Assembly (NCBI RefSeq): GCF_000230715.2
Contig: NC_019792.1
Location: 496,001 to 560,000 of the forward strand
Origin: Natronobacterium gregoryi SP2
Lineage (GTDB): Archaea > Halobacteriota > Halobacteria > Halobacteriales > Natrialbaceae
Length of the DNA stretch: 64,000 nucleotides
Direction of reading: 5' to 3'
In this document: positions 18,747 to 60,483 of the stretch, in pieces
Layout: each line of letters starts with the position of its first letter
Numbering within the stretch: position 1 is the first letter of the stretch
Program-made: the position numbers and the translations under genes
Notes under the pieces: model-generated
Told to the model about the DNA's origin: nothing
The model's input: only the letters and a program-made list of their open reading frames with translations
Database searches by the model: none

Positions 18747-21700
18747 TCAGAGCGTCGCTACGTCGAGTATCGTGACGACCTTGCCACGGCCACGAACCGT
18801 CGCACCGCTGAGGCCAGGAATGCCGCCCATAAAGCCCTCGAAGGGCTTGACGACGACTTCCTGCTGGCCTTGCACGCGGTCACAGCCGAGCGCGACCTGC
18901 CGGACGTCGTCACGCACGCGAACGAGCATCCGTTCTTCCGCGGTCGACTCGAGCGATTCGAACTCCTCCTCGAGCCAGCGAACGGGAGACTCGTCGTCGC
19001 CGTCCGCGAGGACGGGGGTTCCGTCGACCGTCTCGACCGCGCGGGCCGATTCGATGTCCTGCACGACTTTCGTCGGGAGACCGAACTCCCGGCCACCACA
19101 CTCGACGAACAGGACGTCTTCGATCGCGACCGAGACCGGAAGCGTCATCGTGACAGTCGTCCCGCCGCCGGGGTCGCTGTCGATCCGGACGCTTCCATCG
19201 AGGTCCTCGACCGTCCGCTTGACCACGTCCATACCGACGCCACGGCCGCTGACGTCGGTTACCTCGCTCGCCGTCGAGAACCCAGGATGGAACGCGAGGT
19301 CGTACGTGGCTTCGTCGTCCATCGCAGCGGCTTCCGATTCCTCGAGAATGTCTGCTTCGACGGCTTCGGAGCGCAGACGATCCGGAGACAGTCCGGCCCC
19401 ATCGTCCGAGACCGTTATTGTCACTCGATCACGACTCTGGGTGGCAGTCACCTCGACTGTTCCCTCCCGGGGCTTCCCCGCTTGCTCGCGGCTGTCTGGT
19501 GATTCGATCCCGTGATCAACCGCGTTTCGCACCAGATGCACCAGCGGATCTCCGATCCGCTCCAGAATGCTCCGGTCGAGTTCCACGTCCTCGCCGCTCA
19601 ACTCGAGGATGACCTCTTTTTCCTGCTCGCGAGCTACGTCCCGAACCACCCGTGGGAGCCGGCTGACAGCCGTCTCGAGGGGGACGAGTCGGACGTCCAT
19701 CACGGTCTCCTGGAGCGCGGTGGTCAGCTCCGAGAGGTCGTCGAGTTCCGGCTCGAGTTCAGAGAAGTCCTCGCCGGTCTCGGCTGCGTTGTGGAGTCGA
19801 ACGCGCGTCGTCACGAGTCCCTCGACGAGTGTCCGGAGTTCGTCGATCCGGTCGACGTCGACCCTCACCGACTGGTCGCCATCCGCAGGATCGGTGGCTC
19901 CAGATCTATCCGCCGACTCCGGAACTGTCAACTCCGGAACCTCGAGTGCTGGCTCGTCGACGACCCGTTCCGGCTCGACGTCTATCGCCGCCGAGCCGGT
20001 TTCGCTCGCCGTCTCACCCGGGGCAAACGGGTTGCTGTCGCCTTCGAGCGCGATATCCGTCGCCTCGAAGGACTCCTCGAGATCTATCTCGTCGATTACG
20101 TCGGTCTCGTCGACCACGTCGGAACCGTCACCGCCAGTGTCCGAACGGGACGACGCTTCCCGAAGCTCCGACCCGAAGTTGAAACCACCAGTGTCGTCGG
20201 GCTCCGATTCCGCGTCGACAGGGGAAACTGCTCCGTCGTCGGTCGCTCCGTCGTCGACAGCCGCGGTCGACTCCTCCTCGGCGATGCCATCGTCTGGCCC
20301 GCCAGAGAGACCGTCGTCGGTACCGAACTCCGCGCCGTCGTCACCGAACGCGTCGACGTCGTCGATAGTCGCGTCGACTGTCTCACCGAACTGGTCGCCC
20401 TCGAGCGAGACATCGCCAAACTGGTTGCCCTCGAGCGAGACATCGCCAAACTGGTTGCCCTCGAGCGAGACGTCGTCAAACTGGTCGCCCTCGAGCGAGA
20501 CATCGCCAAACTGGTCGCCCTCGAGCGAGACGTCGCCAAACTGGTCGTCGTACTCGTCGGCCGGCACGTCGAAGCCGACGTCTGTCTCGGGGTCGGACTC
20601 GAAACTTGTCTCTGGCTGCTCGCCGAACTCGACGTTGAACGCTGGCTCTTCCGTACAGTCGGCGACCGACTCCTCGGGCGGCAGGTCGTTCACTTCTGGT
20701 TCGCAGTCGTCCTCGTCTATTTCTCGTCGTGACGACTCGTCGGCCTCGTCGGCTGCTCCCGAGTCGGCCACGGCAGCCGTATCCGACGCCACGCTCGAGG
20801 GGGTGTCGCCCTCGAGTGTCGGCGGCTCCGAATCGTCCAACTCGCTCGCAGTCACGGAGTCAGCGGCTACCGCGTCGGCGCTCTCTGTGCCGTCCTCGCT
20901 CTCGAGACCGTCGTCTTCGGGTTCGGACGCCGATTCCGGCTCTCCAGAATCCGTCGGCTCGGTCGCTGGGTCCGAAACGTGGTCCGCTACGTTGGAGCCG
21001 TCGTCTCGGGCTTCGAGGAACGAGCCATCGTCGTCGGCTGCATCACCGAGGAGTTCGTCCATCCCGACCTCTTCGTCGTCGAACTCGTCGAACTCGAGGT
21101 CGGCGAGTTCCTCCTGCAGTTCGTCGAAGCCAACCATCTCGACTTCAGCTTGCAGTTCCGAGAAAACCTCGTTTGCGTCGTCGACTGTGCCGTCTTCGGA
21201 ATCTGTCTCCGACGCTGTCTCGGCGTCGTCTATCACCTGGTCGGTTTCGGCGGCCGCTCGTGGCTCGCCGTCGTCTCCCTCGTCGGCGTCCGCCAGCAGA
21301 TCGTCGAACGCCCCGGCGTCGCCCATCTCGTCGAAGGCCCCGAGATCGTCGTCGTCCGCGATGTCTGCTGCTCTCTCGTCCAGGTCGTCGAACTCGTCGA
21401 ACTCCGCGAGCAGTTCGTCGACCTCGAGTTGTCGTGCCTGGTCGGGGTCGACACCGTCGCCAGGGGCCGTTCCTGACACGAGGTCGTCGAGAGAGTCCTC
21501 GTGTGTCGTTTGCGTCCCGGCCGCGAACCGATCAGTAACCGTGACGATCTCGAAGTCGTGTACCTCCGCGACCGGGTCGAGTCCGGACGCGATCGCCGAC
21601 TCACCGACCGGGCTGGCGAAGACGGCGTCGAACGCGCCGCCGTAGTCGCCGTCGTCGATCACTGACCGTGGCGGGTCGGTGCCGAGCAACTCGAACGCGT

Positions 21701-27660: not shown

Positions 27661-27915
27661 ATGACGAGCGAGGGGACAGGCGACGGCGATTCGGCCGTCG
27701 GGAACGTCCGACAGTGGATCGAGACCGCACGAGAAGAGAAGTGGGGGCTGTTCGTCGACCTCGTGTTCGCCATCGCCTGGGTGACGATGGTCGAGATTAT
27801 TTTCCAGGTCCTCGAGGGTCCCGGCTGGGCGTACTACGTGCTGATGGTCTCCGGTATCGTCGCCTACTTCGGGCTGTTCTGGAACCTCGAGCTAGCGAAG
27901 CAAGGACGGCAGTGA
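27661..27915 (+). CDS. Small two-helix membrane protein, unknown
   Basis: An 84-residue protein with a charged N-terminus (about 30 residues) and two membrane helices: LFVDLVFAIAWVTMVEIIF and a second within YYVLMVSGIVAYFGLFW. I do not recognise a named family. It is divergent from trm56 with 90 bp between starts. Its TGA stop is the left edge of the first palindromic element described in the findings. Confidence 0.65.
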   Translation: MTSEGTGDGDSAVGNVRQWIETAREEKWGLFVDLVFAIAWVTMVEIIFQVLEGPGWAYYVLMVSGIVAYFGLFWNLELAKQGRQ

Positions 27916-27991
27916 TACGGACGACGGCAGGTCGTGTCGGGCCTCTCCACAGAGCTGGTTGTGTTGCCGAAACGTCGGTACGGCCCGTGAT
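27913..27991. repeat. Palindromic element copy 1 (diverged)
   Basis: It starts with TGA, the stop codon of the upstream gene, followed by TACGGAC, and ends at a TGA (27989-27991) shared with copy 2. The left terminus matches the family but the right arm is degraded, so this copy is uncertain. Confidence 0.4.
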
Positions 27992-28074
27992 ACGGTTTGC
28001 TGTCCGTTATTTTCGGCGCGACCGCGAGCCCGCCTGCGGTCGCGCTGATACATCGGTACAGCAGTCCGTATGAG
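27989..28074. repeat. Palindromic element copy 2
   Basis: Eighty-six bases with TGA at both ends in the same orientation. The left arm begins TACGGTTTGCTGT and the right arm ends ACAGCAGTCCGTA. An inner 10-bp perfect stem, GCGCGACCGC/GCGGTCGCGC, has a 10-base loop. Confidence 0.85.
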
Positions 28075-30747: not shown

Positions 30748-32718
30748 TTACTCCTGTACCTGCTGCTGGATCTCGTCGACGACCTCGGGGTTGCGAAGCG
30801 TCGACGTAGTACCCAGTTCGTTGCCACTCGCGATGTCCTCGAGCAGTCGGCGCATGATCTTGCCCGACCGCGTCTTGGGCAGTTCCGGCGTGAAAATGAT
30901 CTCCTCGGGTTTGGCGATCGGCCCGATCGAGTCGACGATCGAATCGACGACTGCCTCCTCGAGGGTTTCGCCGCCTTCGTAGCCGTCTTCGGGGATGGCG
31001 TAGACGTACACTGCTTCGCCCTTGATGTCGTGGTCGCCACCGACGACGGCGGCTTCGGCGACTCCTTCGACCCCGACTGCGGCGGACTCGATCTCCATCG
31101 TGCCCAGTCGGTGACCGGAGACGTTGACGACATCGTCCACGCGGCCGAGCACGGTTATGTAGCCGTCGTCGTCGATCTTCGCGCCGTCTTCTGGGAAGTA
31201 GACCCAGTCGTCGGCGTCGGGATCGGAGTACTCCTCCCAGTACTCGGCGACGAACCGGTCGTCGTTCCGGTAGAGCGTCCGGAGCATCCCGGGCCAGGGC
31301 TTTTGAACCGTGAGGTAGCCTGCTTTGCCGGCGTCGACTTCCTCACCGGTCGTATCGACGACCGTAGCGTCGATCCCAGGCAGCCCTGGACCGGCGGAGC
31401 CCGGCTTCATCTCGGCGATGCCCGGCAACGTCGTGATCATGTGGCCACCAGTCTCGGTCTGCCACCAAGTGTCGACAATCGGACACTCTTCGTTGCCGAT
31501 ATGCTCGTAGTACCACTTCCAGGCCCGCGGATTGATCGGCTCCCCGACCGTGCCGAGCAAGCGAAGCGAGGAGAGGTCGTAGCGCTCGGGATACTCGGTC
31601 CCCCACTTCATGAACGCCCGAATGGCCGTCGGCGCGGTGTAGAAGACATCGACGCGGTTTTTCTCGAGTATCTCCCAGAAGCGGTCTTTATCCGGATAGT
31701 CGGGCGTCCCCTCGTACATCACCGTCGTCGTCCCGAGTGACAGCGGCCCATAGAGGATATAAGAGTGGCCTGTAATCCAGCCGATGTCAGCCGAACACCA
31801 ATAGGTGTCCTCGGGCTCTAGGTCGAGCACCGAGTGACTCGTCCAGGCGGCATACGAGAGGTAGCCACCGGTGGTGTGTTTGACCCCCTTGGGCTTGCCC
31901 GTCGTCCCCGACGTGTACATCAAGAACAGCATGTCCTCGGCGTCCCGGGTGACTGGCTCGACCGTCTCACCGGCGTGTTCCTCGATCAGTTCGCCGTAGC
32001 CTTGCTGGCGTTCGGCAAGGGAGTGCTCGAGGTCGTCACCGAGCCGGTCGACGACGACCGTCTCGGTTTCGTGGTCGACGTCGTCGAGACCCTCGTTTGC
32101 CTTCGAGATGTGGTCGAGCGCGTCACCGCGCCGATAGTAGCCGTCACAGGTTACCAGGTACTCGCTGTCGGCGGCGTTCATCCGCGTCGCAAGCGCGTCC
32201 GCGGAGAAGCCAGCGAAGACGACGCTGTGTGGCGCACCGATCCGAGCACACGCCAGCATCGCAATCGGCAGCTCCGGGATCATCGGCATGTACATCGTGA
32301 CGACATCGTCCTCTTCGACACCCAGATCCCGCAACGCGGCCGCGAACTCGTCGACCTCGGTCAAGAGGTCGCCGTACGTGTACGTCCGCGTTTCACCCAG
32401 CTCGCCTTCCCACTTGATCGCGGCACGGTTTTTCGCCCCGTCCTCGACGTGTCTGTCGAGACAGTTGTACGAGGCGTTTAGCTTCCCGTCCGTGAACCAG
32501 CGGTAGGTCGGTGCCGCCGACTCGTCGAGGACCTCCTCGTAGGGCTCCTCCCAATCGAGACACTCCGCAGCGCGTTCCCAACACTCCGGCCAGTTCTCCT
32601 CGAACTCCTCGTAAATTCCCGGATCAGATACGTTTGCCTGCTCGACGAACGACTCGGGAGGCTCGAACGTCTCCTGTTCCTCGAGTCGTGCCTCGAGTTC
32701 GGCATCCTCCTGTGACAT
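30748..32718 (-). CDS. acs: Acetyl-CoA synthetase (first copy)
   Basis: A 656-residue adenylate-forming enzyme that makes acetyl-CoA from acetate, ATP and CoA through acetyl-AMP. The AMP-binding core is MYTSGTTGKPKGVKHTTGG. WWQTETGGHMITTLPG and the hinge region GRVDDVVNVSGHRLGT follow, and the C-terminal catalytic Lys is in PKTRSGKIMRR, the site of regulatory acetylation in bacterial Acs. ATG 32718 gives the standard Acs length; upstream in-frame sequence is non-coding. It lies just upstream of the DUF4212-symporter pair. Confidence 0.95.
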   Translation of the reverse strand: MSQEDAELEARLEEQETFEPPESFVEQANVSDPGIYEEFEENWPECWERAAECLDWEEPYEEVLDESAAPTYRWFTDGKLNASYNCLDRHVEDGAKNRAAIKWEGELGETRTYTYGDLLTEVDEFAAALRDLGVEEDDVVTMYMPMIPELPIAMLACARIGAPHSVVFAGFSADALATRMNAADSEYLVTCDGYYRRGDALDHISKANEGLDDVDHETETVVVDRLGDDLEHSLAERQQGYGELIEEHAGETVEPVTRDAEDMLFLMYTSGTTGKPKGVKHTTGGYLSYAAWTSHSVLDLEPEDTYWCSADIGWITGHSYILYGPLSLGTTTVMYEGTPDYPDKDRFWEILEKNRVDVFYTAPTAIRAFMKWGTEYPERYDLSSLRLLGTVGEPINPRAWKWYYEHIGNEECPIVDTWWQTETGGHMITTLPGIAEMKPGSAGPGLPGIDATVVDTTGEEVDAGKAGYLTVQKPWPGMLRTLYRNDDRFVAEYWEEYSDPDADDWVYFPEDGAKIDDDGYITVLGRVDDVVNVSGHRLGTMEIESAAVGVEGVAEAAVVGGDHDIKGEAVYVYAIPEDGYEGGETLEEAVVDSIVDSIGPIAKPEEIIFTPELPKTRSGKIMRRLLEDIASGNELGTTSTLRNPEVVDEIQQQVQE

Positions 32719-33070
32719 GATACACCCAACTAATATGCTACTACCATCGTAAAGCCGGACTCTAGTTGTACAAAATCGATCGGACACCGAGCTAGCCGAG
32801 TGGATTTTTCCAGTAACAAATCGAAGAATACTATGGCTTCGGAGCCGAATTCGCGGTCTGGCACGTGATGGCGCGATGTCAGGTAGCGCGGTGAGAGGGG
32901 GCAATCACGAGCCGTCCACGGCGGCATCTAGAAGCTTAGTAACGACGACCGACCACCGTTTCTCACCTCGAGCACCGATACGTAGCGCAGTTCGTCCGGA
33001 TTGCTGTACCGGTCTCCCGGTGTGGCCGCTTCGGAACGGTTGCACCGGCAACGACAGACAAGAACCCGTC
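32719..33070. promoter_or_regulatory. Intergenic region upstream of acs copy 1
   Basis: A gap of about 350 bp between the acs start and the stop of the Bat-like regulator, both on the minus strand. On the acs side the minus strand has an AT-rich stretch (AGCATATTAG around 32730-32740) close to the start codon that may serve as the promoter. The other end holds a palindromic element (32992-33073). I see no credible ORF. Confidence 0.4.
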
Positions 33071-33073
33071 TCA
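32992..33073. repeat. Palindromic element copy 3
   Basis: The left end is TCGTCCGGATTGCTGT (subtype with CCGG in place of ACGG). The inner stem is GTGTGGCCGCTT/ACGGTTGCACC-like, and the right end is CCCGTCTCA. The terminal TCA at 33071-33073 is the stop codon, read on the minus strand, of the Bat-like gene. Confidence 0.7.
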
Positions 33074-35281
33074 GCCGGTGTGACCGTCGCCGGCTCCCGC
33101 TGGAGTGTGGCCCTCGTCGTCGGCAGGGTCGTCGAAGAACGTCCGGAGCAGTTCGTGTTGGCCCTTGCGAAGGTGGTTGTGTAGCGTCGGGGAGGACACC
33201 CCCATCGCGTCTGCGATCTCCTCGGCGGTACTCTCGCGCGGCCAGTCGTAGTAGCCGCCGAAGTACGCCGCACGCAACGACGACACCTGCCGGTCAGTCA
33301 GGCGATCCTCGAGTCCCTCCCTGAATTCGCGGGCAGTCTGGACCGTCCGATCGCTCTCGCGTTTTCCAATCAGTTCCGAGTCGGGGAACGTGGCCCTGAA
33401 CCCACTGACGATCGTCCGGAGATCGGCGTCTGCCGCACATTCGGCCGTGATCGTTCCCCGCCCGTCCTCGACTGTCGCCGTACGGATGGTGACGCCGTAC
33501 TCCGACAGCGTCAACATCGGCGACGCACCGTCGACGACAAACTCGACGCGCCAGCCGTCTTCGTAGGTCTCGATGAGTCGATAGTCGGTGACTCGCTGCT
33601 CGTCTGCGGCGAGATCGAAGACGTCGGCCGGCGGCGCTCCTTCGAGTCGGAAGTAGTACAGTTGCGTCGACTCCGAAACCGGCACGACCGAGTCGAGTTC
33701 GAACCGACACTCGAGGCGATCCGAGACGTCGACGAAGAACGCCCGGTCGTCCCAACACTCGAGTTCGAACTCGACGACCTGATCCGAGAGCAAGAGGTTG
33801 CGCCGACGAACGGCCGTGATCGCGTAGCCGACCTGTCGGCCGATCGTCGCGAGCCAGGTGCGCTCGTCGGCGTCGAAGGCCACCTCGCGGTCGGTCGCGA
33901 CCGAGAGGGTGCCGTAGGTCGTCTCGCCATACTGGAGCGGGACGTGGGCGATGGCACCGTCGAAACTGTCGCCGTCGACCTCCGTGCTGGTACCGACGAC
34001 GTCGATCCCGTCCGTCAGCTCTGGCTCCCACTCTTCGGGCACGATGTCGTCGATAGCGACGGGATCGATCCCACTTGCAGCCCGCCACTCCCTGCGGCGA
34101 TCCACCATCGTCGTTCGATCGATCCAGGCGAACTCGTAGACGCCACCGTCGACCAGGGTCGCACAGGTCTCGGTCTCGACTTCCTCGTGGTCGTTTGCCT
34201 CCAGCAGCGCCCGAGTCAGGTCACGGTGACGGGTCGCCAGCGCGTACCGGCGGCCGAGTTCCTCGCGTCGCTCCCTGACGGCCTCGAGTTCGTCGTAGTA
34301 CGTAGAGACGTCGCGGACGAACAGTGCGAACCCGCAGTGGCGGCCACGGTCGTCTCGTAGAGGGGTGACGACCTCCGTCGCGCGAAACCGGGAGCCGTCC
34401 TCCCGAACGCGCCAACCCTCGGTCTCGTGTCCGGACTCCTCGAGAGCACTCGAGAGCGTTCGCTCCGGCGCTCCCGCCTCGACGGCCTCGTCGGTGTAAA
34501 ACGCCGAGACGTGCGTGCCGACGATCTCGCCGGCACGATAGCCAAACAACGTGGCACCGCTGCGGTTCCACCGGTCGACGTACCCATCCTCGTCGAGGCG
34601 AACGAGCGCGTACTGGTCGCTCGCTGCGAGCAACAGCCGAACGACGCTGTCGTCGCCGACTGCACCCCGACCGGACCGCGACTCCCCGCTTCGTGGGCCG
34701 GAGGGTCCTTCGACGGCCTCGAAGCTGTCTACGATCTCCGCCTCGGCCGGCTCGGGCAGGTATCGCTCGAGGGCCTCGAAACTCCGCCAGCCGCCGACGG
34801 CCTTGACGACCCGTGGATTGACGCCGTGTTCGGCGAGTGACCGGGACGCGAAGTAGTGTCGGAGATCTCCGGTCGAGACGTCGGCGAGCGCGGAGTCGTC
34901 GAACCGATCGCTCGCGCGATCGGCTACGTCGGAGACGAGCATCTGGAGCCGCCGTGGCGTCACGGAAAAGATTCGGTCCGCGGGCGAGAGCCCGTTGCTC
35001 CGTGCGTATCGGCGTAGCTCTCGCTCGACGTGTGTCGGTAGGTAAGCAGTTCGCTCGTCCTCGCGGTCGTCGGTCGCCGGCACGCGAACGAGGTATCGCG
35101 GCGGATCGATGCGAGCCTGGTCGACGTCATCGATCCGCAACCGGGCCAGTTCGGCCGGTCGGAGTCCGACCTCGCCACAGAGACGGACGACCAGTACCTC
35201 CCGATACGTCTCGGCAGCGTCGAGCAACGACTCGTACTGCCGACGGGAGAGGGCATCCATCGCTCCCTCCTCGAGACTCAT
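33071..35281 (-). CDS. Bat-like transcription regulator: integrase-fold, PAS, GAF and HTH-10 domains
   Basis: A 736-residue multidomain regulator. Residues about 1-175 have the tyrosine-recombinase fold (RLCGEVGLRPAELARLRIDDVD, DLRHYFASRSLAEHG, GGWRSFEALERYL), keeping two Arg, Trp and Tyr positions but not the usual His-x-x-Arg His. A PAS domain follows at about 195-310, a GAF domain at about 325-470, the Bat-associated domain at about 480-655, and the HTH-10 domain at the end (LTDRQVSSLRAAYFGGYYDWPRES, EEIADAMGVSSPTLHNHLRKGQ). Proteins of this layout sense light, oxygen or redox state and control gene expression. It lies between two acs genes, which it may regulate. ATG 35281 is preferred to the long upstream extension. 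Confidence 0.88.
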   Translation of the reverse strand: MSLEEGAMDALSRRQYESLLDAAETYREVLVVRLCGEVGLRPAELARLRIDDVDQARIDPPRYLVRVPATDDREDERTAYLPTHVERELRRYARSNGLSPADRIFSVTPRRLQMLVSDVADRASDRFDDSALADVSTGDLRHYFASRSLAEHGVNPRVVKAVGGWRSFEALERYLPEPAEAEIVDSFEAVEGPSGPRSGESRSGRGAVGDDSVVRLLLAASDQYALVRLDEDGYVDRWNRSGATLFGYRAGEIVGTHVSAFYTDEAVEAGAPERTLSSALEESGHETEGWRVREDGSRFRATEVVTPLRDDRGRHCGFALFVRDVSTYYDELEAVRERREELGRRYALATRHRDLTRALLEANDHEEVETETCATLVDGGVYEFAWIDRTTMVDRRREWRAASGIDPVAIDDIVPEEWEPELTDGIDVVGTSTEVDGDSFDGAIAHVPLQYGETTYGTLSVATDREVAFDADERTWLATIGRQVGYAITAVRRRNLLLSDQVVEFELECWDDRAFFVDVSDRLECRFELDSVVPVSESTQLYYFRLEGAPPADVFDLAADEQRVTDYRLIETYEDGWRVEFVVDGASPMLTLSEYGVTIRTATVEDGRGTITAECAADADLRTIVSGFRATFPDSELIGKRESDRTVQTAREFREGLEDRLTDRQVSSLRAAYFGGYYDWPRESTAEEIADAMGVSSPTLHNHLRKGQHELLRTFFDDPADDEGHTPAGAGDGHTG

Positions 35282-35408: not shown

Positions 35409-37388
<1,980 letters not shown>

Positions 37389-38204: not shown

Positions 38205-38290
38205 TCATACGGTTTGCCGTCAGTCAGTGCCGGCGCGTCCGCGAGCCCGCCCGCGGTCGCGCCGGGACATCGGTACAGCAATCCGTCTCA
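38205..38290. repeat. Palindromic element copy 4
   Basis: Eighty-six bases flanked by TCA on both sides. The left arm starts TACGGTTTGCCGT and the right arm ends ACAGCAATCCGTC. The inner stem GCGCGTCCGC/GCGGTCGCGC has one mismatch and the loop GAGCCCGCCC. It shares its right TCA with copy 5. Confidence 0.88.
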
Positions 38291-38370
38291 GACGACCTCT
38301 TTCCGTCAGTGCCAGCACACCCGCGACCCGAATCGGCGACACCGGGGCGTCGGGACAGCGCCCAATCTCA
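38288..38370. repeat. Palindromic element copy 5 (diverged)
   Basis: Eighty-three bases between the TCA shared with copy 4 and the TCA shared with copy 6. Its right end GGGACAGCGCCCAATC keeps the ACAGC mark and its left end keeps GACG; the inner arms are eroded. Confidence 0.5.
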
Positions 38371-38452
38371 CACACCTTCCTGTAGTCAACTCCCGCCGAT
38401 CGCCAGAACGAGGTCGGCGATCAGCGGTAACTAGTTACAGCAAACCGTATCA
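38368..38452. repeat. Palindromic element copy 6
   Basis: Eighty-five bases between TCA trinucleotides. The inner stem CCGCCGATCGCC/GGCGATCAGCGG has one mismatch, and the right arm ends TTACAGCAAACCGTA. The last TCA (38450-38452) is the stop codon of the minus-strand uspA. Confidence 0.7.
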
Positions 38453-38905
38453 GTCGCCGGTCGACTCCGGCTCATGCTCGTCTTCCGCGACGACCACTAC
38501 TGGCCGATCGGTGAGCCTGACGACGCCGTCGACCGTCCCCCCCAACAACGCCCGCTTGAACGACGACCGGCCGCGAGCGCCGACGACGATCGCGTCCACG
38601 CCGTACTCGCCAGCAGCCTCGAGGATCTTCTCGTGTGGCACTCCCGACTCGACTGTCGTTTCGACCGAGAGGCCGACGTCGACCGCGGTCGACTCGAGGT
38701 CGGCAAGCACCGACTCTGCACGATCGATCCGTCGGCGTTTGGTCTCCGCTGGATCGACGATCGCGTTGTCGTACTCGGTTCGACTCTCGAGAACCGTGAT
38801 CCCGTACAGCGTGGCACCGAACTGGTCCGCAAGCTCGATCGCGTGCTCGACTGCGACACTCCCGGTCTCGCTCCCGTCGGTCGCGACGAGAATCGAGTCG
38901 TACAT
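38450..38905 (-). CDS. Universal stress protein UspA family
   Basis: A 151-residue UspA protein with MYDSILVATDGSETGSVAVEHAI and the intact nucleotide-binding motif GARGRSSFKRALLGGTVDGV. It is the third UspA in 11 kb. It is monocistronic as far as I can see. Its stop codon TGA is the right-hand trinucleotide of palindromic element copy 6, so the coding end and the element boundary coincide. Confidence 0.92.
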   Translation of the reverse strand: MYDSILVATDGSETGSVAVEHAIELADQFGATLYGITVLESRTEYDNAIVDPAETKRRRIDRAESVLADLESTAVDVGLSVETTVESGVPHEKILEAAGEYGVDAIVVGARGRSSFKRALLGGTVDGVVRLTDRPVVVVAEDEHEPESTGD

Positions 38906-39004
38906 GGGCGTATTTCGGCCGGGGGTGAAAAAGAAGTGTCCCCCCTGGCGACTCTTCGAGGCTCGTCGTACAGATTGCCAGACCGACGCGGTCCGACCGG
39001 GGTC

Positions 39005-39076
39005 CGTCTGCGATTACTGCCGATCGCCAGAATGGGGTCGGCGATCGGTGAGAAGTGACGACAGGAAACCGTATCA
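39005..39076. repeat. Palindromic element copy 7 (shortened)
   Basis: It contains GATTACTGCCGATCGCC and GGTCGGCGATCGG as inner arms, and ends GACAGGAAACCGTATCA. The final TCA (39074-39076) is the stop codon of the minus-strand gene. The left end is eroded. Confidence 0.6.
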
Positions 39077-39862
39077 ATCGTCCCTGTCCGGCATCGTCGA
39101 AAACCGCGCCAGTGCTTTCATATCCGTCCGGTCGGACGGCGACGGAGCCGTCGTCGAGTGACGAACGACGCCACGGGACGACCGACGGCCGTCGGAACCC
39201 AGGCGGTCGAAGAGACCATCCCCCTGCTCGTCTCCGGTTTCGTCACTCGGTTCCTCGTCGGCAGTTTCGGCTTCGTCCCCCTCGTCGGCCGACCCCGCTT
39301 CGTCCCTACTGGCTTCGCCGTCACCAGCTGTTACCTCTTCGAGTCGCTGCTGGATCTGCGTTACCTCGTCGCCAAACTCCGTGACGGTCTCGCGCATCGT
39401 CGAACGGAGTCGATCCTCGAGGCTGCCGTCTCCGTCAGGCTGCTCTCTTCCGGTCGCCTCTTCGCCGGCCGACGGCTCCGAACCCCTGCCAGATTTCGAT
39501 TCGCCAGCCGCTCGTAAGACCCCAATCACGTCGTCGATCTCCGCTTTGTCCGCCTGGTCAGCGAGGTTGCCGAGCCGCAAGAGTCGCTCGAGATGCTCGA
39601 CCGCCGCTGGCTCGCCCTCGACGATGGCCTCCGGAATCGAATCGGGTTCGGAACCGTCCGGGAGCATCTCGAGTCCGACAGCCTCGAGGAGTACCTCTGG
39701 CTCCGTGGACTCGAGGAGGTCACTCGCTCGCGTTGCTGTCTCTACGAGGTCACCGGCCTCTCCGTTCGTCTCGGTCGGCCCGGCGACGACCGCCTCGCTC
39801 GCCGCGTCGGCCGCGTTCAGTATCTCGGTCACCCGATCTCGAACGTCGTCTGTTACTGTCAC
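39074..39862 (-). CDS. Acidic hypothetical protein, fourth gene of the acidic operon
   Basis: A 262-residue protein that I do not recognise. GTG 39862 is preferred to a GTG 13 codons upstream because GAGGAGG (minus strand) precedes it at 6 bp. Residues 1-125 look like an ordered helical domain (LLESTEPEVLLEAVGLEMLP, AAVEHLERLLRLGNLADQ). The middle is rich in Glu and Asp, and the end (DMKALARFSTMPDRDD) is less acidic. It sits 52 bp after the SAP-like protein on the same strand and probably belongs to its transcript. Confidence 0.6.
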   Translation of the reverse strand: MTVTDDVRDRVTEILNAADAASEAVVAGPTETNGEAGDLVETATRASDLLESTEPEVLLEAVGLEMLPDGSEPDSIPEAIVEGEPAAVEHLERLLRLGNLADQADKAEIDDVIGVLRAAGESKSGRGSEPSAGEEATGREQPDGDGSLEDRLRSTMRETVTEFGDEVTQIQQRLEEVTAGDGEASRDEAGSADEGDEAETADEEPSDETGDEQGDGLFDRLGSDGRRSSRGVVRHSTTAPSPSDRTDMKALARFSTMPDRDD

Positions 39863-41139: not shown

Positions 41140-42329
41140 AGTTCGGCCTCCGTTTCTGCCGGCTCTTCGTCGGTCTCCGATTCTTCGATCCCCGACTCGA
41201 GTTGGTCGATCAACGCCTGGAGTGTCTCGCGAACGACCGTCGCCACGATCGCCTCGATGGGCAGGTTCGGAACGAACCCGGCCAGCCGGTCTTTCACCCA
41301 CTCGGTCGCGGACGAGAGGCTCCCTCGAAGCCAGCCTCCAGCCCTGGAGAACAAGCCACCGTCGGCCCCAGCCGCTTTTTCGTCCATGTCCTCTGTCTCC
41401 GCTTTGCCTCTCTTTGCTGGTGACCCACCACGACCGAACAGGCGACCGACCACCCGCTTTGGCGCGGTAAGAACCGTCATAGCGCCGTCTTTGAGCCGAT
41501 CGATCAGTCCGATGACCCACTCTTTTGGCTTGCCCAGGAGTGACGTCACCGTGTCCAGGACAGCACGGGGGCCGTCCAGCAACCCCGACACGGCTGACAG
41601 GAGATTCCCGAGCAAGTTGTTCTCGCCCGGCCGAGCCGACACGTCGAGCGTTACCGCGTCGAGGTTGACCTCCAGACCGAGCAGATCGAGAAACAGCCCA
41701 TCGAGATCGAGGTGGAGGACACCAGCGGTCTCGTCGCTTTCGTAGACGTCGTCGGCGTCCTCGACGTGGTACTCACCGTCTTCCTCGCTTTCGTCTCCGT
41801 CCTCTCTCTCACCGTCTTCCTCGCTTTCGTCTCCGTCCTCTCTCTCACCGTCTTCCTCGCTTTCGTCTCCGTCCTCTCTCTCACCGTCTCCCTCGCTTTC
41901 GTCTCCGCCCTCTCTCTCACCGTCTCCCTCGCTTTCGTCTCCGCCCCCTCTCTCACCGTCTTCCTCGCTTTCGTCTCCGCCCCCTCTCTCACCGTCTTCC
42001 TCGCTTTCGTCTCCGTCCTCTCTCTCACCGTCTCCCTCGCTTTCGTCTCCGCCCCCTCTCTCACCTTCTTTCGCCTCCGTTTCCGCTTTGCCTTCCGTCT
42101 CTTCGTCTGCCTCCGTTTCCTCGTCACTTCTGAGTTCTTCCCGTGTTTCGTTCTCGCTCGCACCGTCGTCACTCTCGGTTTCGTCCGCCCGCTCGGCCGC
42201 TGCTCGACCGCCGTCGGTCAGGACTCGAGTCGTCGATCGATCACGTCGGCCGGGGCGACTCGCGCTGGCGTCGACCTCGCCGGGACTCACACGCTCGTCA
42301 ATCCCCTCACCGTCTGATCCCGCTGTCAT
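41136..42329 (-). CDS. Acidic repeat protein with beta-type LLGLEVNLD motif, first gene of the acidic operon
   Basis: A 397-residue protein from ATG 42329. Residues about 91-186 are eight 12-residue repeats of the type GDESEEDGERED. Next comes a hydrophobic, patterned segment VLHLDLDGLFLDLLGLEVNL followed by DVSARPGENNLLGNLLSAVSGLLDG. As I recall, this alternating motif ending in NLLGNLL recurs in putative surface proteins of haloarchaea and actinobacteria. The C-terminal 150 residues contain amphipathic helices (FSRAGGWLRGSLSSATEWVKDRL). No signal peptide is seen. It leads an operon of four acidic proteins and may be part of a multi-protein assembly. Confidence 0.65.
   Translation of the reverse strand: MTAGSDGEGIDERVSPGEVDASASRPGRRDRSTTRVLTDGGRAAAERADETESDDGASENETREELRSDEETEADEETEGKAETEAKEGERGGGDESEGDGEREDGDESEEDGERGGGDESEEDGERGGGDESEGDGEREGGDESEGDGEREDGDESEEDGEREDGDESEEDGEREDGDESEEDGEYHVEDADDVYESDETAGVLHLDLDGLFLDLLGLEVNLDAVTLDVSARPGENNLLGNLLSAVSGLLDGPRAVLDTVTSLLGKPKEWVIGLIDRLKDGAMTVLTAPKRVVGRLFGRGGSPAKRGKAETEDMDEKAAGADGGLFSRAGGWLRGSLSSATEWVKDRLAGFVPNLPIEAIVATVVRETLQALIDQLESGIEESETDEEPAETEAEL
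41773..42060 (-). repeat. 36-bp in-frame tandem repeat (eight units)
   Basis: Eight contiguous 36-bp units starting at 41773, 41809, 41845, 41881, 41917, 41953, 41989 and 42025. They encode 12-residue acidic repeats and differ only at a few positions (GTC/GCC, CTC/CCC). No spacers are present. High uniformity suggests recent slippage or gene conversion. Confidence 0.95.
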
Positions 42330-44129: not shown

Positions 44130-45737
44130 ATGAGTGGGGAGCAAACGGACGACATCGAGCGGACTGCTGATGAGGGGATCGAGTACGGAATCGACGACCG
44201 GCCGCCGCTAGGTGAGTCGACGGTGCTTGGCATCCAGCACTACTTGACGATGATCGGTGCGAACATCGCGGTGCCGCTGATTCTGGCGGACGCGATGGGG
44301 ATGCCAGGCGACATTACGGCGCAGTTCGTCGGGACCTTCTTCGTCGTTTCGGGGATCGCGACGCTGGCACAGACGACGTTCGGGAACCGGTATCCGATCG
44401 TCCAGGGAGCGCCGTTCTCGATGCTCGCACCGGCACTTGCCATCGTCGCCGTCGTGACCACGGGTGGCGTGGCGGGACAACCGGACTGGCAGGCAGCCCT
44501 CTTGCAGTTACAGGGTGCGATCATCGTCGCCGCGGCGGTCCAGGTGCTGATGGGGTATTTCGGTCTGGTCGGCAAACTCCAGCGGTTCCTGTCGCCGGTC
44601 GTCATCGCACCGACGATCGCACTGATCGGGCTGTCACTTTTCGATGCAGGCCAGATCACGTCGCCCGATCAAAGCTGGTGGTTGCTCGGACTGACGCTCG
44701 TGTTGATCGTCCTGTTCTCGCAGTATCTCGACCTCAAGCACAAGGCGTTTCGGCTGTACCCGGTCATTCTGGCGATAGCGATCGCCTGGCTTCTCGCCGC
44801 CGTCATGTCGTGGATGGATCTCCTGGTGGGCGACCACCCCGGCTACGTCCCGCTCGGCGAGGTCACCGACGCATCACTCCTCTTGCCGATCTATCCGTTC
44901 CAGTGGGGCGTTCCGGAGTTTACGACCGCGTTTATCATCGGAATGTTCGCCGGCGTGCTCGCTTCGATCGTCGAGAGCATCGGTGACTACTACGCCGTTG
45001 CAAACCTGACCGGCTCGGCAGCACCCAGCGAGCGACGCATCAACCACGGGATCGGGATGGAAGGCCTGATGAACATCTTCTCGGGGATCATGGGCACCGG
45101 TGGCTCGACCTCGTACTCCGAGAACGTCGGCGCGATCGGCCTGACCGGCGTCGCCTCCCGGTACGTCGTCCAGATCGGGGCACTCGTCATGCTGGTCGCC
45201 GGCTTCGTCGGTTACTTCGGCCAGGTGATCGCGACGATCCCCGACCCGATCGTCGGCGGCCTCTTTATCGCCATGTTCGCCCAGATCGTCGCCGTCGGCA
45301 TAGGAAACCTCCGACACGTCGATCTCGACTCCTCGAGGAACGTCTTCGTCATCGGCTTTGCCCTGTTCGTCGGGCTGGCGATCCCCGAATACATGGCCAA
45401 CTTCGAGAACACGCTCGTGTTCCGTGACGCAGTCGGCATCGAGGCGACGCTCGCGCCGCTGCTCGGGATGGAACTGATCGCCGGCACCGCCCTCGCAGGC
45501 TGGCTCGAGGCCACCGCGCTCGCGGTCGTCGATACCGTCTTCATCATCGGCTCGACGGGGATGGCGATCGGTGGCCTCGCAGCGCTTTTCCTCGACAACA
45601 CGATCCCTGGCACGCGGGAGGAACGCGGTCTCGCTCAGTGGGATCGACTCACCGAAGACGACAGCGAGTTCGAACCGTTCTGGGAACGGTGGGCCGATTC
45701 CGACGACACCCCAAGCGAAACTACCCGCGAGAGCTGA
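44130..45737 (+). CDS. NCS2 family nucleobase (uracil/xanthine) permease
   Basis: A 535-residue membrane protein with 12-14 helices from ATG 44130, preceded by AGGAGAG. Family landmarks are LGIQHYLTMIGANIAVPLIL near the start, the conserved NRYPIVQGAPFSMLAP loop, ESIGDYYAVANLTGSAAPS with the key Glu of NCS2 carriers, and GMEGLMNIFSGIMGTGGSTSYSENVG, the signature motif. It imports uracil, xanthine or a similar base with protons or sodium. Its TGA stop is the left trinucleotide of palindromic element copy 8. Confidence 0.93.
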   Translation: MSGEQTDDIERTADEGIEYGIDDRPPLGESTVLGIQHYLTMIGANIAVPLILADAMGMPGDITAQFVGTFFVVSGIATLAQTTFGNRYPIVQGAPFSMLAPALAIVAVVTTGGVAGQPDWQAALLQLQGAIIVAAAVQVLMGYFGLVGKLQRFLSPVVIAPTIALIGLSLFDAGQITSPDQSWWLLGLTLVLIVLFSQYLDLKHKAFRLYPVILAIAIAWLLAAVMSWMDLLVGDHPGYVPLGEVTDASLLLPIYPFQWGVPEFTTAFIIGMFAGVLASIVESIGDYYAVANLTGSAAPSERRINHGIGMEGLMNIFSGIMGTGGSTSYSENVGAIGLTGVASRYVVQIGALVMLVAGFVGYFGQVIATIPDPIVGGLFIAMFAQIVAVGIGNLRHVDLDSSRNVFVIGFALFVGLAIPEYMANFENTLVFRDAVGIEATLAPLLGMELIAGTALAGWLEATALAVVDTVFIIGSTGMAIGGLAALFLDNTIPGTREERGLAQWDRLTEDDSEFEPFWERWADSDDTPSETTRES

Positions 45738-45820
45738 TACGGACTGTTGTCCCGATGTACCGACGCGATCCCAGGACTGGTCACGGTCGCGCCGGAACCG
45801 ACTGACACCGGTCCGTGTGA
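45735..45820. repeat. Palindromic element copy 8
   Basis: Eighty-six bases with TGA at both ends. The left one is the stop codon of the NCS2 permease. The left arm TACGGACTGTTGTC matches the inverse of the right end GACACCGGTCCGTG. The inner arms (CGACGCGATC/GGTCGCGCCG) are imperfect. Confidence 0.8.
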
Positions 45821-48402: not shown

Positions 48403-48485
48403 TCGTCCGGGTTGCTGTCCGCCATTTCTGGTGTGGCCGCGCCCGAAGCGGTTGTACCGGAGTATCGGTACAGCATTCCGTCTCA
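48403..48485. repeat. Palindromic element copy 9
   Basis: It starts TCGTCCGGGTTGCTGT (same CCGG subtype as copy 3) and ends TACAGCATTCCGTC-TCA. The right TCA is shared with copy 10. The inner arms are GTGTGGCCGC and GCGGTTGTACC. Confidence 0.75.
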
Positions 48486-48568
48486 TACGGATTACTGTAC
48501 CGATTTACCGGCGCAACCGCCGCCCGGGTCGCGGTTGTGCCGGAAATGACTTACAGTGAACCGTCTCA
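48483..48568. repeat. Palindromic element copy 10
   Basis: Eighty-six bases with TCA on both sides and the best hairpin of the family. Outer arms are TACGGATTACTGT and ACAGTGAACCGTC. The inner 13-bp stem CCGGCGCAACCGC/GCGGTTGTGCCGG has one G-U pair. The right TCA is the stop codon of the minus-strand flavoprotein gene. Confidence 0.92.
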
Positions 48569-49918
48569 GTCGTCCGCGAGTTTCCCGTTGAGGACCTTCG
48601 CTGCGGTAAGAATCGGGTCCCAGACTGGACTAAACGGCGGTGCGTACGCCAGATCGAGATTCTGGAGTTCCGGAACGGTTAGTTCGGCGTGGAGTGCGGT
48701 CGCCACCGTATCGATTCGCTTGGTCCCTTCCTCACCGACGAGGCTGGCACCGAGGACGCGTTCGCTCTCGCGGTCGGCGACCAGCGTCACCGCGAGGTCG
48801 GTCGCTCCGGGATAGTAGTGGGGGCGCGTGGGTGCTTCGATGGTTACCGAGAGAGGAGCGAAGCCGGCCTCTCGTGCACGCTCCGAGTCGACGAGACCGG
48901 TTCGGGCCGCACCCAGGTCGAACGCCTTGACGATCGCCGTTCCCGCCGTCCCGCCGGTCGGCGTCGGGTCGCCCGCGACAGTCGTCCCGATTGCCCGTCC
49001 TGCACGGTTCGCGGTCAGCGCGAGCGGGACGTGATCGGGGTCGCCGGTGACGACGTTCGTCGCTTCGGCGCAGTCGCCCGCCGCGAACACGTTCTCGGCG
49101 TTCGTCCGCCCGTACTCGTCGGTCGCGATAGCGCCCGTCGGTCCGAGTTCGATCCCGGCCGCCTCGGCCAGTTCGACGCTCGGTGCGACGCCGACGCCGA
49201 CGACGACGAGTTCCGCCGGAGACGAGCCGTCTTCGAGGTCGACGCGTTCGACCCGATCGTCGCCCGAAAAGCCCTGGACTGCGGTCTCGAGGTGGAGGTC
49301 GACGCCTTGGTCGCGGAGGTGGTCCTCGACGGTCCGGGCCGTCTCCTCCCCGAACGGTTGGAGCGTCCGGGGGAGCATCTCGAAGATCGAAACGTCGACG
49401 CCACGTTCGACGAGCGCCTCGGCCATCTCGATGCCGACGTAGCCCCCGCCGACGATCGCGGCAGTCTCGGGGTCGCGTTCGGTGACGTAGCTTTCGATCG
49501 CGTCGGCCTCGTCCATGCTCCGGAGCGTGAACACGCCCTCGAGGTCGACGCCGTCGAACGGCGGTTCGATCGCGCGTGCACCGGTTCCGATCAGCAGTGT
49601 TCCGTACGGCTGTTCGAATCGGTCGCCGTCGGCGTCGACAGTGACGGTCTTCGCCTCCCGGTCGATTGCCACGACCTCGTGACCCGTCCGGAGGTCGACG
49701 TCGCGTTGCTCGCGGAACTCCTCGGGCGTCACCGCCACGAGGTCTTCGAGTTCCTCGACGGTCCCTTTCACGTGATACGGCATCCCACAGGCCGCATACG
49801 AGACCCACTCGCCTCTCTCGAAGACGATCACCTCGAGATCGGGGTCTTCGCGTTTCGCCTTGCTTGCGGCGCTCATTCCGGCTGCGTCGCCACCGACGAT
49901 GACGAAGGGGTCGTCCAT
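48566..49918 (-). CDS. FAD-dependent pyridine nucleotide-disulfide oxidoreductase (CoA-disulfide reductase-like)
   Basis: A 450-residue flavoprotein from ATG 49918. The N-terminal FAD motif is FVIVGGDAAGMSAASKAKR. The single active-site Cys is C44 in SYAACGMPY, the hallmark of the CoA-disulfide reductase/NADH oxidase/persulfide reductase branch. The NAD motif is AAIVGGGYVGIEMAEAL, and VFAAGDCAEA precedes the C-terminal dimer domain. Relatives reduce CoA disulfide, CoA persulfide or polysulfide. Its place next to dsrE, tusA and persulfide dioxygenase genes favours a role in sulfane-sulfur metabolism. Confidence 0.88.
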   Translation of the reverse strand: MDDPFVIVGGDAAGMSAASKAKREDPDLEVIVFERGEWVSYAACGMPYHVKGTVEELEDLVAVTPEEFREQRDVDLRTGHEVVAIDREAKTVTVDADGDRFEQPYGTLLIGTGARAIEPPFDGVDLEGVFTLRSMDEADAIESYVTERDPETAAIVGGGYVGIEMAEALVERGVDVSIFEMLPRTLQPFGEETARTVEDHLRDQGVDLHLETAVQGFSGDDRVERVDLEDGSSPAELVVVGVGVAPSVELAEAAGIELGPTGAIATDEYGRTNAENVFAAGDCAEATNVVTGDPDHVPLALTANRAGRAIGTTVAGDPTPTGGTAGTAIVKAFDLGAARTGLVDSERAREAGFAPLSVTIEAPTRPHYYPGATDLAVTLVADRESERVLGASLVGEEGTKRIDTVATALHAELTVPELQNLDLAYAPPFSPVWDPILTAAKVLNGKLADD

Positions 49919-52926: not shown

Positions 52927-53397
52927 GTGAGCAGCATGAGCCAGCAACGTCATCCCCTGTTCGTGCCGCTGATCTTCGTCGGCGGTCTGATCTTCGGCTT
53001 CGGCCTCGGGTTCAGCCACATGGCCCGACCCGAAGTCGTTCTGAACTTCCTGCAGTTCGAGGATTTCGGACTGCTGTTCGTCATGGGTGGAGCCGCGGTC
53101 GTCACCGGTATCGCGTTTGCGCTGGTTCCGCGGCTGTTCGACCGTGCACCGCTGACTGGCGACACCTACGGCCGACGACTGAAGTCGTTCGACCGTAACG
53201 TCCTGATCGGCGGTGCGATCTTCGGCGTCGGCTGGGGGTTGTCGGGGATCTGTCCCGGTGCAGCCTACGCCAGCCTCGGCGTCGGCAACGTCACGATCCT
53301 GTGGGCACTGGCCGGGATGTTCGTCGGCGCGTACCTCCAGGGCTACTGGCGTAGTCAACGTGCCACCTCGAGGACGACGCCCACGGGTGCCGACTGA
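52927..53397 (+). CDS. YeeE/YedE family sulfur transporter, second half
   Basis: A 156-residue membrane protein with four helices and the second signature WGLSGICPGAAYASLG, with one Cys. GTG 52927 is preferred over ATG 52936 because GGAGGTGA ends about 8 bp before it. With the preceding gene it makes a split YeeE/YedE transporter, feeding sulfane sulfur or thiosulfate to the neighbouring TusA, DsrE and rhodanese proteins. Its TGA stop is the left trinucleotide of palindromic element copy 11. Confidence 0.88.
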   Translation: MSSMSQQRHPLFVPLIFVGGLIFGFGLGFSHMARPEVVLNFLQFEDFGLLFVMGGAAVVTGIAFALVPRLFDRAPLTGDTYGRRLKSFDRNVLIGGAIFGVGWGLSGICPGAAYASLGVGNVTILWALAGMFVGAYLQGYWRSQRATSRTTPTGAD

Positions 53398-53478
53398 TGC
53401 GGATTGCTGTACTGATGTACCGGTGGAACCGCTTCGGGTCGCGGTTGCACCGGAACTGACGTACAGTAAACCGTCTGA
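53395..53478. repeat. Palindromic element copy 11
   Basis: Eighty-four bases with TGA at both ends; the left TGA is the YeeE-like stop codon. Outer arms are TGCGGATTGCTGTAC and GTACAGTAAACCGTC. The inner stem ACCGGTGGAACCGC/GCGGTTGCACCGG is nearly complete. Confidence 0.9.
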
Positions 53479-53592: not shown

Positions 53593-54255
53593 ATGAGCCC
53601 ACGGGCTTTCGCCGAGGGGACGGAGACCGAGAGCCATGGAGCAATCGATCGGTTGGAGGAACAGTCGCTCCGGGTCGTCCTCAAAATCATCCGTGGCGGG
53701 TCGTGTTTTATAGACGGACTCGAGGGTGACGTCGTCGACGTAGACGTCCGACTCGAGGACGGGCACTGTCATTGTGACGTCTCGGTTCGAACGGACGACG
53801 ACGGCGTCGAACGGATCGAAACGAGGTACGCCTCGAGCGAAATTTGTGCGCACTGTCCGGGGGCCGTCTTCTCCGATCACGGTTGTATCCCGCGGTATCT
53901 CGGCGTCGGCGACGGCTGGTTCGTCGTCGAGACGTACGCAGCCGACACCGACACTGTCTCCTCGCTGGTCGAGGACGTTCGAGCGGTCTGTGATCGGGTC
54001 ATCGTCAAGAGTCTCGTCTCGACCGAGCGTGGCGAACACGACGACGTCTGTACGATCGACGTCTCGCCACTGACGCCGAAACAACGCGAGGCCGTCCACC
54101 ACGCCGTCGAGGCTGGCTACTACGATCCCGCTACACAGGTCCCACTCGAAGACGTCGCTGCGAAACTCGAGATCTCCCCGTCGGCACTCTCTCAGCGTCT
54201 TCGCCGCGCCGAAAGTAACATTATGCGACAGGTTTCGGAGGACGGCGACGACTGA
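53593..54255 (+). CDS. HTH-10 family regulator with Cys-rich sensor region
   Basis: A 220-residue regulator. The C-terminal 60 residues are an HTH-10 (bacterio-opsin activator type) domain: LTPKQREAVHHAVEAGYYD then LEDVAAKLEISPSALSQRLRRAE. The N-terminal part has eight or so cysteines (GGSCF, GHCHCDV, EICAHC, DHGCIP, AVCDR, DDVCTI), an unusual density that suggests a thiol, metal or FeS sensor. It sits between the sulfur genes and the molybdoenzyme operon and most likely controls one or both, like the DmsR-type regulators next to haloarchaeal dms operons. Confidence 0.85.
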   Translation: MSPRAFAEGTETESHGAIDRLEEQSLRVVLKIIRGGSCFIDGLEGDVVDVDVRLEDGHCHCDVSVRTDDDGVERIETRYASSEICAHCPGAVFSDHGCIPRYLGVGDGWFVVETYAADTDTVSSLVEDVRAVCDRVIVKSLVSTERGEHDDVCTIDVSPLTPKQREAVHHAVEAGYYDPATQVPLEDVAAKLEISPSALSQRLRRAESNIMRQVSEDGDD

Positions 54256-54334
54256 GACGGATTACTGTACCGATTTACCGGCGCAACCGCCGTCCGGCGA
54301 TCGTGCTGATAACGCACTCCCATCATCCGTACGA
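54253..54334. repeat. Palindromic element copy 12
   Basis: It begins with TGA, the stop codon of the HTH-10 gene, then GACGGATTACTGTACCGATT and the inner arm CCGGCGCAACCGC, identical to copy 10. The right half is eroded and ends CATCCGTACGA. Confidence 0.75.
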
Positions 54335-59962: not shown

Positions 59963-60048
59963 TCAGACAGGTTGCTGTCAGTCAGTTCCGGCGCGACCGC
60001 AGGAGGACTCGCGGTCGCGCCGGTAGATCGGGACAGCAGTCCGTCTCA
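59963..60048. repeat. Palindromic element copy 13
   Basis: Eighty-six bases with TCA at both ends. The left arm is GACAGGTTGCTGTC and the right arm is GACAGCAGTCCGTC. The inner stem CCGGCGCGACCGC/GCGGTCGCGCCGG is a perfect 13 bp. The right TCA is the stop codon of the thioredoxin gene. Confidence 0.92.
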
Positions 60049-60483
60049 GGTGTATTGCTCGAGCAACTGCTCGAGTTGCCCCTTCGTCTGTGCGCCGACC
60101 ATCCGCTCGACCGGTTCACCGTCTGCGTAGAGAACCAGCGTCGGCACGCCCTGTGCCCCGAGTTGCTGGGCCAGTCGCTGATGGGCGTCGACGTCGACTT
60201 TTGCGACTGCAGCGTCCGTTTCGGCGGCCAGCGCCTCGATCGTTGGCTCGAGCATCTGGCAGGGCCCACACCAGTCGGCGTAACAGTCGACGAGGACGAC
60301 ATCGTGATCGTCGACGACGTTCTCTAAGTGACCCTGACCCGTGATACCGATCGGCTCGGCGGGAGTATCGGACGCGTCGGCGACCTCGGACGTGGCGAGT
60401 TCGCCGCCGTTCTCGAGTCGGTCTTGGAGCTCCTGTTTCTTCCGTTCGCGAATGCGGTGTCGTTCTTCGTCGAGATCAGTCAT
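60046..60483 (-). CDS. trxA: Thioredoxin with acidic/charged N-terminal extension
   Basis: A 145-residue thioredoxin. The active site is YADWCGPCQM (C72, C75), followed by the cis-Pro loop GVPTLVLY. The first 45 residues (DEERHRIRERKKQELQDRLENGG) are a charged helix not present in bacterial thioredoxin. It reduces protein disulfides or peroxiredoxin. ATG 60483 is chosen because the upstream extension is non-coding. An ACTATTTT stretch about 35 bp upstream on its strand may be the promoter. Confidence 0.93.
   Translation of the reverse strand: MTDLDEERHRIRERKKQELQDRLENGGELATSEVADASDTPAEPIGITGQGHLENVVDDHDVVLVDCYADWCGPCQMLEPTIEALAAETDAAVAKVDVDAHQRLAQQLGAQGVPTLVLYADGEPVERMVGAQTKGQLEQLLEQYT

Follow-up and report, generated by a model that had tools for sequence, protein, structure and literature searches.

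The three stacked repeats at 38205-38452 of the window (i.e. the whole 64,000-nt stretch of Natronobacterium gregoryi SP2 DNA that was analysed) very probably belong to a non-autonomous, MITE-like family that inserts at TSA (TGA or TCA), duplicates those 3 bp, lands often on TGA stop codons and stacks renewably at the same place. Judged on sequence, there is a target-site duplication, a preferred motif, a coincidence with stop codons and stacking by exactly 3 bp; the stacked members arose independently of one another, a congener has the empty site, and arrays are ordered from young to old.

The members of the array lie head to tail on the plus strand. The first (38205-38290, a span that takes in both of its TCA copies) belongs to subfamily A and is 91% identical to the consensus. 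The second (38288-38370) is eroded, with 70% identity to the nearest subfamily consensus, and the third (38368-38452), closest to the gene, belongs to subfamily C with 81% identity. TCA at 38288-38290 and TCA at 38368-38370 are each common to two neighbours, and the outer trinucleotides (38205-38207 and 38450-38452) are also TCA. The arrangement of the copies, their single shared trinucleotides and their unequal divergence are as an earlier note on this DNA had described them.

That note did not mention that the outer target duplication TCA 38450-38452 is, on the minus strand, the TGA stop codon of a universal stress protein (USP) gene (38450-38905, minus strand; Pfam Usp, E 1.6e-30), which anchors the array. 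The orthologous stop codon is present in the congeneric genome G003, where the site has a single TCA as against the 248-bp array here. An additional decayed copy (38999-39076, minus strand, subfamily C-like; left end uncertain, 38999-39014) has a TCA at 39074-39076 that is the stop codon of the gene at 39074-39832.

The outer trinucleotide is the exact TGA stop of the adjoining gene in eight of the nine clusters in the window, and seven of these eight genes have Pfam domains. Minus-strand copies lie on the stop codons of a BAT/HTH_10 regulator gene (copy 32992-33073; gene 33071-35281), a permease gene (45735-45820; 44130-45737) and two further genes (53395-53478, gene 52936-53397; and 54253-54334, truncated or decayed, gene 53593-54255). 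A thioredoxin-like gene (60046-60483) has a plus-strand copy (59963-60048) at its stop codon. At the 45735 site the spacing of the aligned flanks is 56 bp in G003 and 57 bp here after subtraction of the element; the site in G003 is shorter by one element. As noted earlier, the two copies of another array, at 48403-48485 (plus strand, older) and 48483-48568 (minus strand, subfamily B, 96% of consensus, younger and gene-proximal), share TCA 48483-48485; TCA 48566-48568 is the stop codon of an oxidoreductase gene (48566-49918). A subfamily A copy at 27988-28073 (plus strand) has a TGA...TGA duplication. The earlier note had placed a shared TCA at 27989-27991. A shared trinucleotide is there, but it is TGA at 27988-27990, one position away, and the left partner, a decayed copy probably at ~27913-27990, was seen by eye only and was not scored by the profile.

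A search of 864 kb of this genome with profiles derived from the sequence gave 146 copies, and another 400 kb gave 55. Judged by a neighbouring gene, the genome's close relatives all fall within Natrialbaceae. The genome is one contig of 3,788,356 bp, of which the sampled stretches are about one third, so that the ~200 copies in 1.26 Mb extrapolate to ~600 in the chromosome. The consensus is 79-80 bp long and contains no gene, fitting the size and coding limits of a MITE (<500 bp, no coding capacity). As a MITE should be, the family is also dispersed, multi-copy and recently mobile, the youngest copies being 96-100% identical to the consensus and a congener having empty sites. The terminal inverted repeats are K-ACGGTTTRCTGT...ACAGYARYCCGT-M, with 13-bp ends, and the element is a near-complete palindrome. 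Subfamilies A, B and C have common ends (KACGGTTTRCTGT...ACAGYARYCCGTM) and different interiors, each of which still folds back, and the hairpin potential of the copies is strong (z -6 to -10 against shuffled sequences). Nothing in 27000-61000 of the window matched Rfam above the gathering score. Among plasmid records, full-length copies occur on Natrialbaceae plasmids and on two Haloarcula plasmids; phage records gave no convincing copy.

Flanking trinucleotides are equal in 72 of the 118 copies that have both ends, with 37 TGA/TGA and 33 TCA/TCA. The shared trinucleotide is a 3-bp target-site duplication of TSA. The earlier proposal of insertion at TGA/TCA thus holds for 70 of the 72 equal-flank copies, but the target is longer, approximately GAC-TGA-GAC. 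There are a few TTA duplications besides TSA, and the 3-bp TNA duplication expected for IS5/IS1031 or PIF-Harbinger elements is found. We rule out a 5-bp duplication that would take in the variable terminal base, since whether this base is T or G does not depend on the flank. We note separately that at its outer tip the element carries either T or G (at the opposite end A or C), a mixture explained neither by the flank nor by the duplication. Most syntenic sites in G003 are without the element; note that this comparison is between species, not strains. G003 and this genome have one copy in common (271348 of the sampled contig), so the family was already moving before the two species split. Nested insertions recur at the internal CTG-TCA-GTCAG of subfamily A, each with its own TCA, TGA or TTA duplication.

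The coincidence with stop codons was analysed in five stretches from four genomes, the expectation being the share of TGA stops among the available TSA sites. Gene starts and stops were taken from our own codon-usage gene finder, except for annotated plasmids. The profile missed 38288-38370, so automated cluster counts split that array in two; this member was added by hand where stated. Clusters lie exactly on a TGA stop in 46 of 129 cases in one stretch of this genome (expected 13.4, P 2e-14), and in 17 of 51 in a second (expected 4.2, P 4e-7). The corresponding figures are 15 of 22 in G021 (expected 4.1, P 5e-7), 4 of 5 in G020 (expected 0.7) and 5 of 8 in G003 (expected 0.9). In this genome (G000) and G021 together a cluster is found at 74 of 841 TGA stops, at 3 of 325 TAA stops and at none of 350 TAG stops; TAA and TAG make up nearly half of the stops in this genome, yet they are almost never hit. 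With database annotation, exact coincidence was seen in three of the six plasmid copies examined, at genes for an archease (Natrinema thermotolerans), a glycosyltransferase (Natronorubrum daqingense) and an FAD oxidoreductase (Natrialba magadii). As regards orientation, 13 of 15 stop-codon copies in G021 (L089-L108) face the same way relative to the gene, while in the window's genome the division is 25 to 21.

Reconstructed empty sites favour approximately GAC-TGA-GAC, both at stop codons and elsewhere. Sites matching all six flanking positions are occupied in 5 of 7 cases, and those matching none in 0 of 380. A few flanks are remnants of older copies, but an origin of the motif merely as such remnants was rejected, as it holds for some flanks only. 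GAC-TGA is a natural gene end in the acidic proteins of haloarchaea (an Asp codon followed by TGA), and GAC is among the commonest last codons in this genome.

There are 23 stacked junctions in the 1.26 Mb (21 detected by the profile and the two of the window triple), and all overlap by exactly 3 bp. Stacked pairs also occur in three other genera (G019, G021 and G024). In 864 kb, 17 junctions were detected in addition to the two of the window triple, where average site rates predict 6.6 and rates for each motif class predict 23. The duplicated trinucleotide does act as a fresh target, as the earlier note supposed, but the self-targeting it inferred can do without any dedicated self-recognition, the rate of stacking being predicted from the motif alone. 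Note that the motif rates derive from these very insertions; the agreement therefore shows consistency and is no independent test. A sharper test lies in the order of ages, since arrivals on the gene side should leave the youngest member nearest the gene. Of 13 stop-anchored arrays, 12 have their least diverged member in that position (P 0.0017). The sole exception is the array at 38205-38452, where the distal member is the best preserved, and so the last insertion was apparently on the side far from the gene.

Tandem duplication, slippage or the arrival of a ready-made dimer might also create arrays, and we infer that duplication of a unit containing one trinucleotide would likewise keep the exact sharing of 3 bp. 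The stacked partners are, however, less alike than random copies (mean identity 0.69, maximum 0.79, against 0.74). Only 3 of the 23 pairs are of the same subfamily, where 44% would be expected (P 0.002), the other 20 being mixed. Orientation is random (the same in 10 of 23 pairs) and divergence is strongly unequal within arrays. Taken with the empty site in G003, these features mean that the arrays grow by repeated insertion and not by tandem duplication, and we regard the latter as extremely unlikely. The earlier note had stated that its reading would fail if members of one array were more similar to each other than to copies at other loci; the identities show the reverse, and its inference of repeated insertions over time is sustained by the diverged partners, the mixed subfamilies and the empty site in G003. 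The shortage of same-subfamily pairs may stem from recombination that removed near-identical tandem or inverted neighbours, or from activity in waves. The copies could instead be hairpins maintained by the host at 3′ ends (terminators, mRNA stabilisers or REP-like sequences), with the placement at stop codons reflecting function. Their strong hairpin potential and frequent position at gene ends would suit such a role, but the majority of copies lie away from stops, some are situated between divergent genes, and the copies are flanked by a 3-bp duplication. Many are in an advanced state of decay, none matches an Rfam family in the region searched, and at most syntenic positions the congener has no copy. 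This origin is thus very improbable, while a secondary use of copies in some genes cannot be excluded.

The enrichment at stop codons could be mainly a matter of survival, with insertion at any TSA and purging of insertions in coding sequences and promoters, so that those at the 3′ ends of genes remain. The rates at motif-matched sites do fall with distance from the 3′ end, from 14% at stops to 6.6% at 1-30 nt and 2.6% beyond 120 nt, and no coding insertions were seen, as selection would leave. Yet stops are hit 2.4-fold more often than sites 1-60 nt downstream that match the motif equally well (Fisher P 0.004), and with the motif controlled the odds ratio against other intergenic sites is 3.8. 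Moreover the flanking motif is preferred away from stops too, and survival alone would yield neither the motif nor the order of ages. Survival close to the 3′ end therefore plays a part, given that the stop excess persists after control for the motif and that the rates drop further from the gene; that it is the main cause remains possible, if somewhat unlikely. Surviving copies alone cannot fully divide targeting from survival. The effect left at stops after motif control (2.4-fold; logit 1.47, interval 0.98-1.93) would also be expected if transposition were physically coupled to the termination of translation or transcription, stop codons being sensed as such. However, TAA and TAG stops are almost never hit, and the DNA motif together with survival can explain most of the effect; equal insertion into GACTGAGAC in non-transcribed DNA would be at odds with such coupling. 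We consider it highly improbable. More broadly, that the transposase has been selected to recognise the haloarchaeal gene 3′ end (Asp codon and TGA), or that insertion is coupled to termination itself, is a suggestion we make only tentatively and think unlikely. If true, stop codons would be a renewable safe harbour for a mobile element family, and either mode of targeting would be without description in the literature searched.

On our preferred reading, i.e. a MITE-like element with a target motif, the non-autonomous element inserts at TSA and copies those 3 bp. The preferred site, approximately GAC-TGA-GAC, is in a haloarchaeon most often a C-terminal Asp codon and a TGA stop. Since the duplicated 3 bp are then the stop codon, the host gene keeps the end of its reading frame. 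After insertion the gene-side copy reads GAC-TGA-(G/T)ACGG, again close to the preferred site; the rate of stacking would follow because most of the favoured right flank is already present in the end of the element (K-ACGG). The next element can then land on the gene side and push the earlier one away from the gene. By inference only, the insertions are the work of a DDE-type transposase supplied in trans, and those falling in coding DNA are purged by selection.

Neither the sampled 1.26 Mb nor a search of related genomes for the end patterns yielded a transposase or a longer autonomous copy bounded by these ends. None of the PF01609, PF13358, PF13610 and PF12762 transposase loci examined in this genome has these ends, and PF13586 is absent from it. 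Among the loci examined there is no transposase of the IS5/IS1031 or PIF-Harbinger type with matching ends, the PF01609 loci having other ends. Several candidates were rejected. Where long paired ends occur in the 1.26 Mb, they are explained by adjacent copies or by other repeats that have nested within; the lone ends repeated in G019 are part of a different repeat; and the candidates from G009 and G022 proved to be a gene that happens to lie between chance ends and a variant of 143 bp. The element works like a MITE, and its mobiliser was not identified in the set searched.

Tourist-like MITEs and PIF-Harbinger elements, and the IS5-related IS1031 group, have 3-bp TNA-type duplications, small palindromic forms and nested or adjacent insertions. 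The present family resembles them in all of these, but here the target is TSA with GAC flanks, stop codons are involved and no related transposase has been shown. MITEs of bacteria and archaea are short and gene-less, with terminal inverted repeats, a short target duplication and high copy number, and are presumed to be moved in trans (PMC10969869). The family shares all those features, but we could trace it to no parent transposon. That review uses none of the terms 'stop codon', 'tandem' and 'nested'. The small mobile repeats (SMR) of Haloquadratum walsbyi are 80-110 bp long, with inverted repeats unlike those of any known transposon, a strong target preference and an unknown mobiliser, and one is often inside another (PMC3119063). 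Both families are haloarchaeal, small and inverted-repeat, with strong target preference and unknown mobiliser, and in both, copies lie within other copies. However, the SMR were reported without target duplication and prefer IS605-type elements and their relatives (PMC3119063), whereas the present element duplicates 3 bp and prefers GAC-TGA and itself. In the open literature that was searched, most subscription papers lying outside it, neither this family nor targeting of stop codons by a MITE is described.

Mobile elements spare their host by finding safe sites. Here the site would be the stop codon, rebuilt by the insertion itself, and the same gene end could be reused repeatedly with the protein unchanged. 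The earlier claim that arrays can grow without hurting genes is thus upheld in a more specific form, the target often being the stop codon itself. The stop-anchored stacks would be a record of successive waves of transposition, the newest copy usually beside the gene. Users of Natrialbaceae genomes should be aware that at many gene 3′ ends the DNA directly from the stop codon is that of the element.

Some minor observations were made. A 143-bp version of subfamily B in G022 (L234-L238) has ~58 extra loop bases and occurs five times, which means that this composite has multiplied in its own right. Inside family copies at G000 C1:788040, 954239 and 2706917 (i.e. 292040 and 458239 of the sampled contig, and 146917 of the second stretch) lies a second small repeat (TACCGTCCCAACCGTCGACTGACGGGTCGAATCGAG...); one of these insertions has ACTAG at either side, as though it had duplicated 5 bp. 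In the window there are ~nine units of a 36-bp tandem repeat at 41700-42131 and 30-bp tandem repeats at 20359-20575, both probably coding. The stretches 30766-32410 and 35430-37077, 4.66 kb apart, are similar to one another, the second lying within an acyl-CoA synthetase-like gene.
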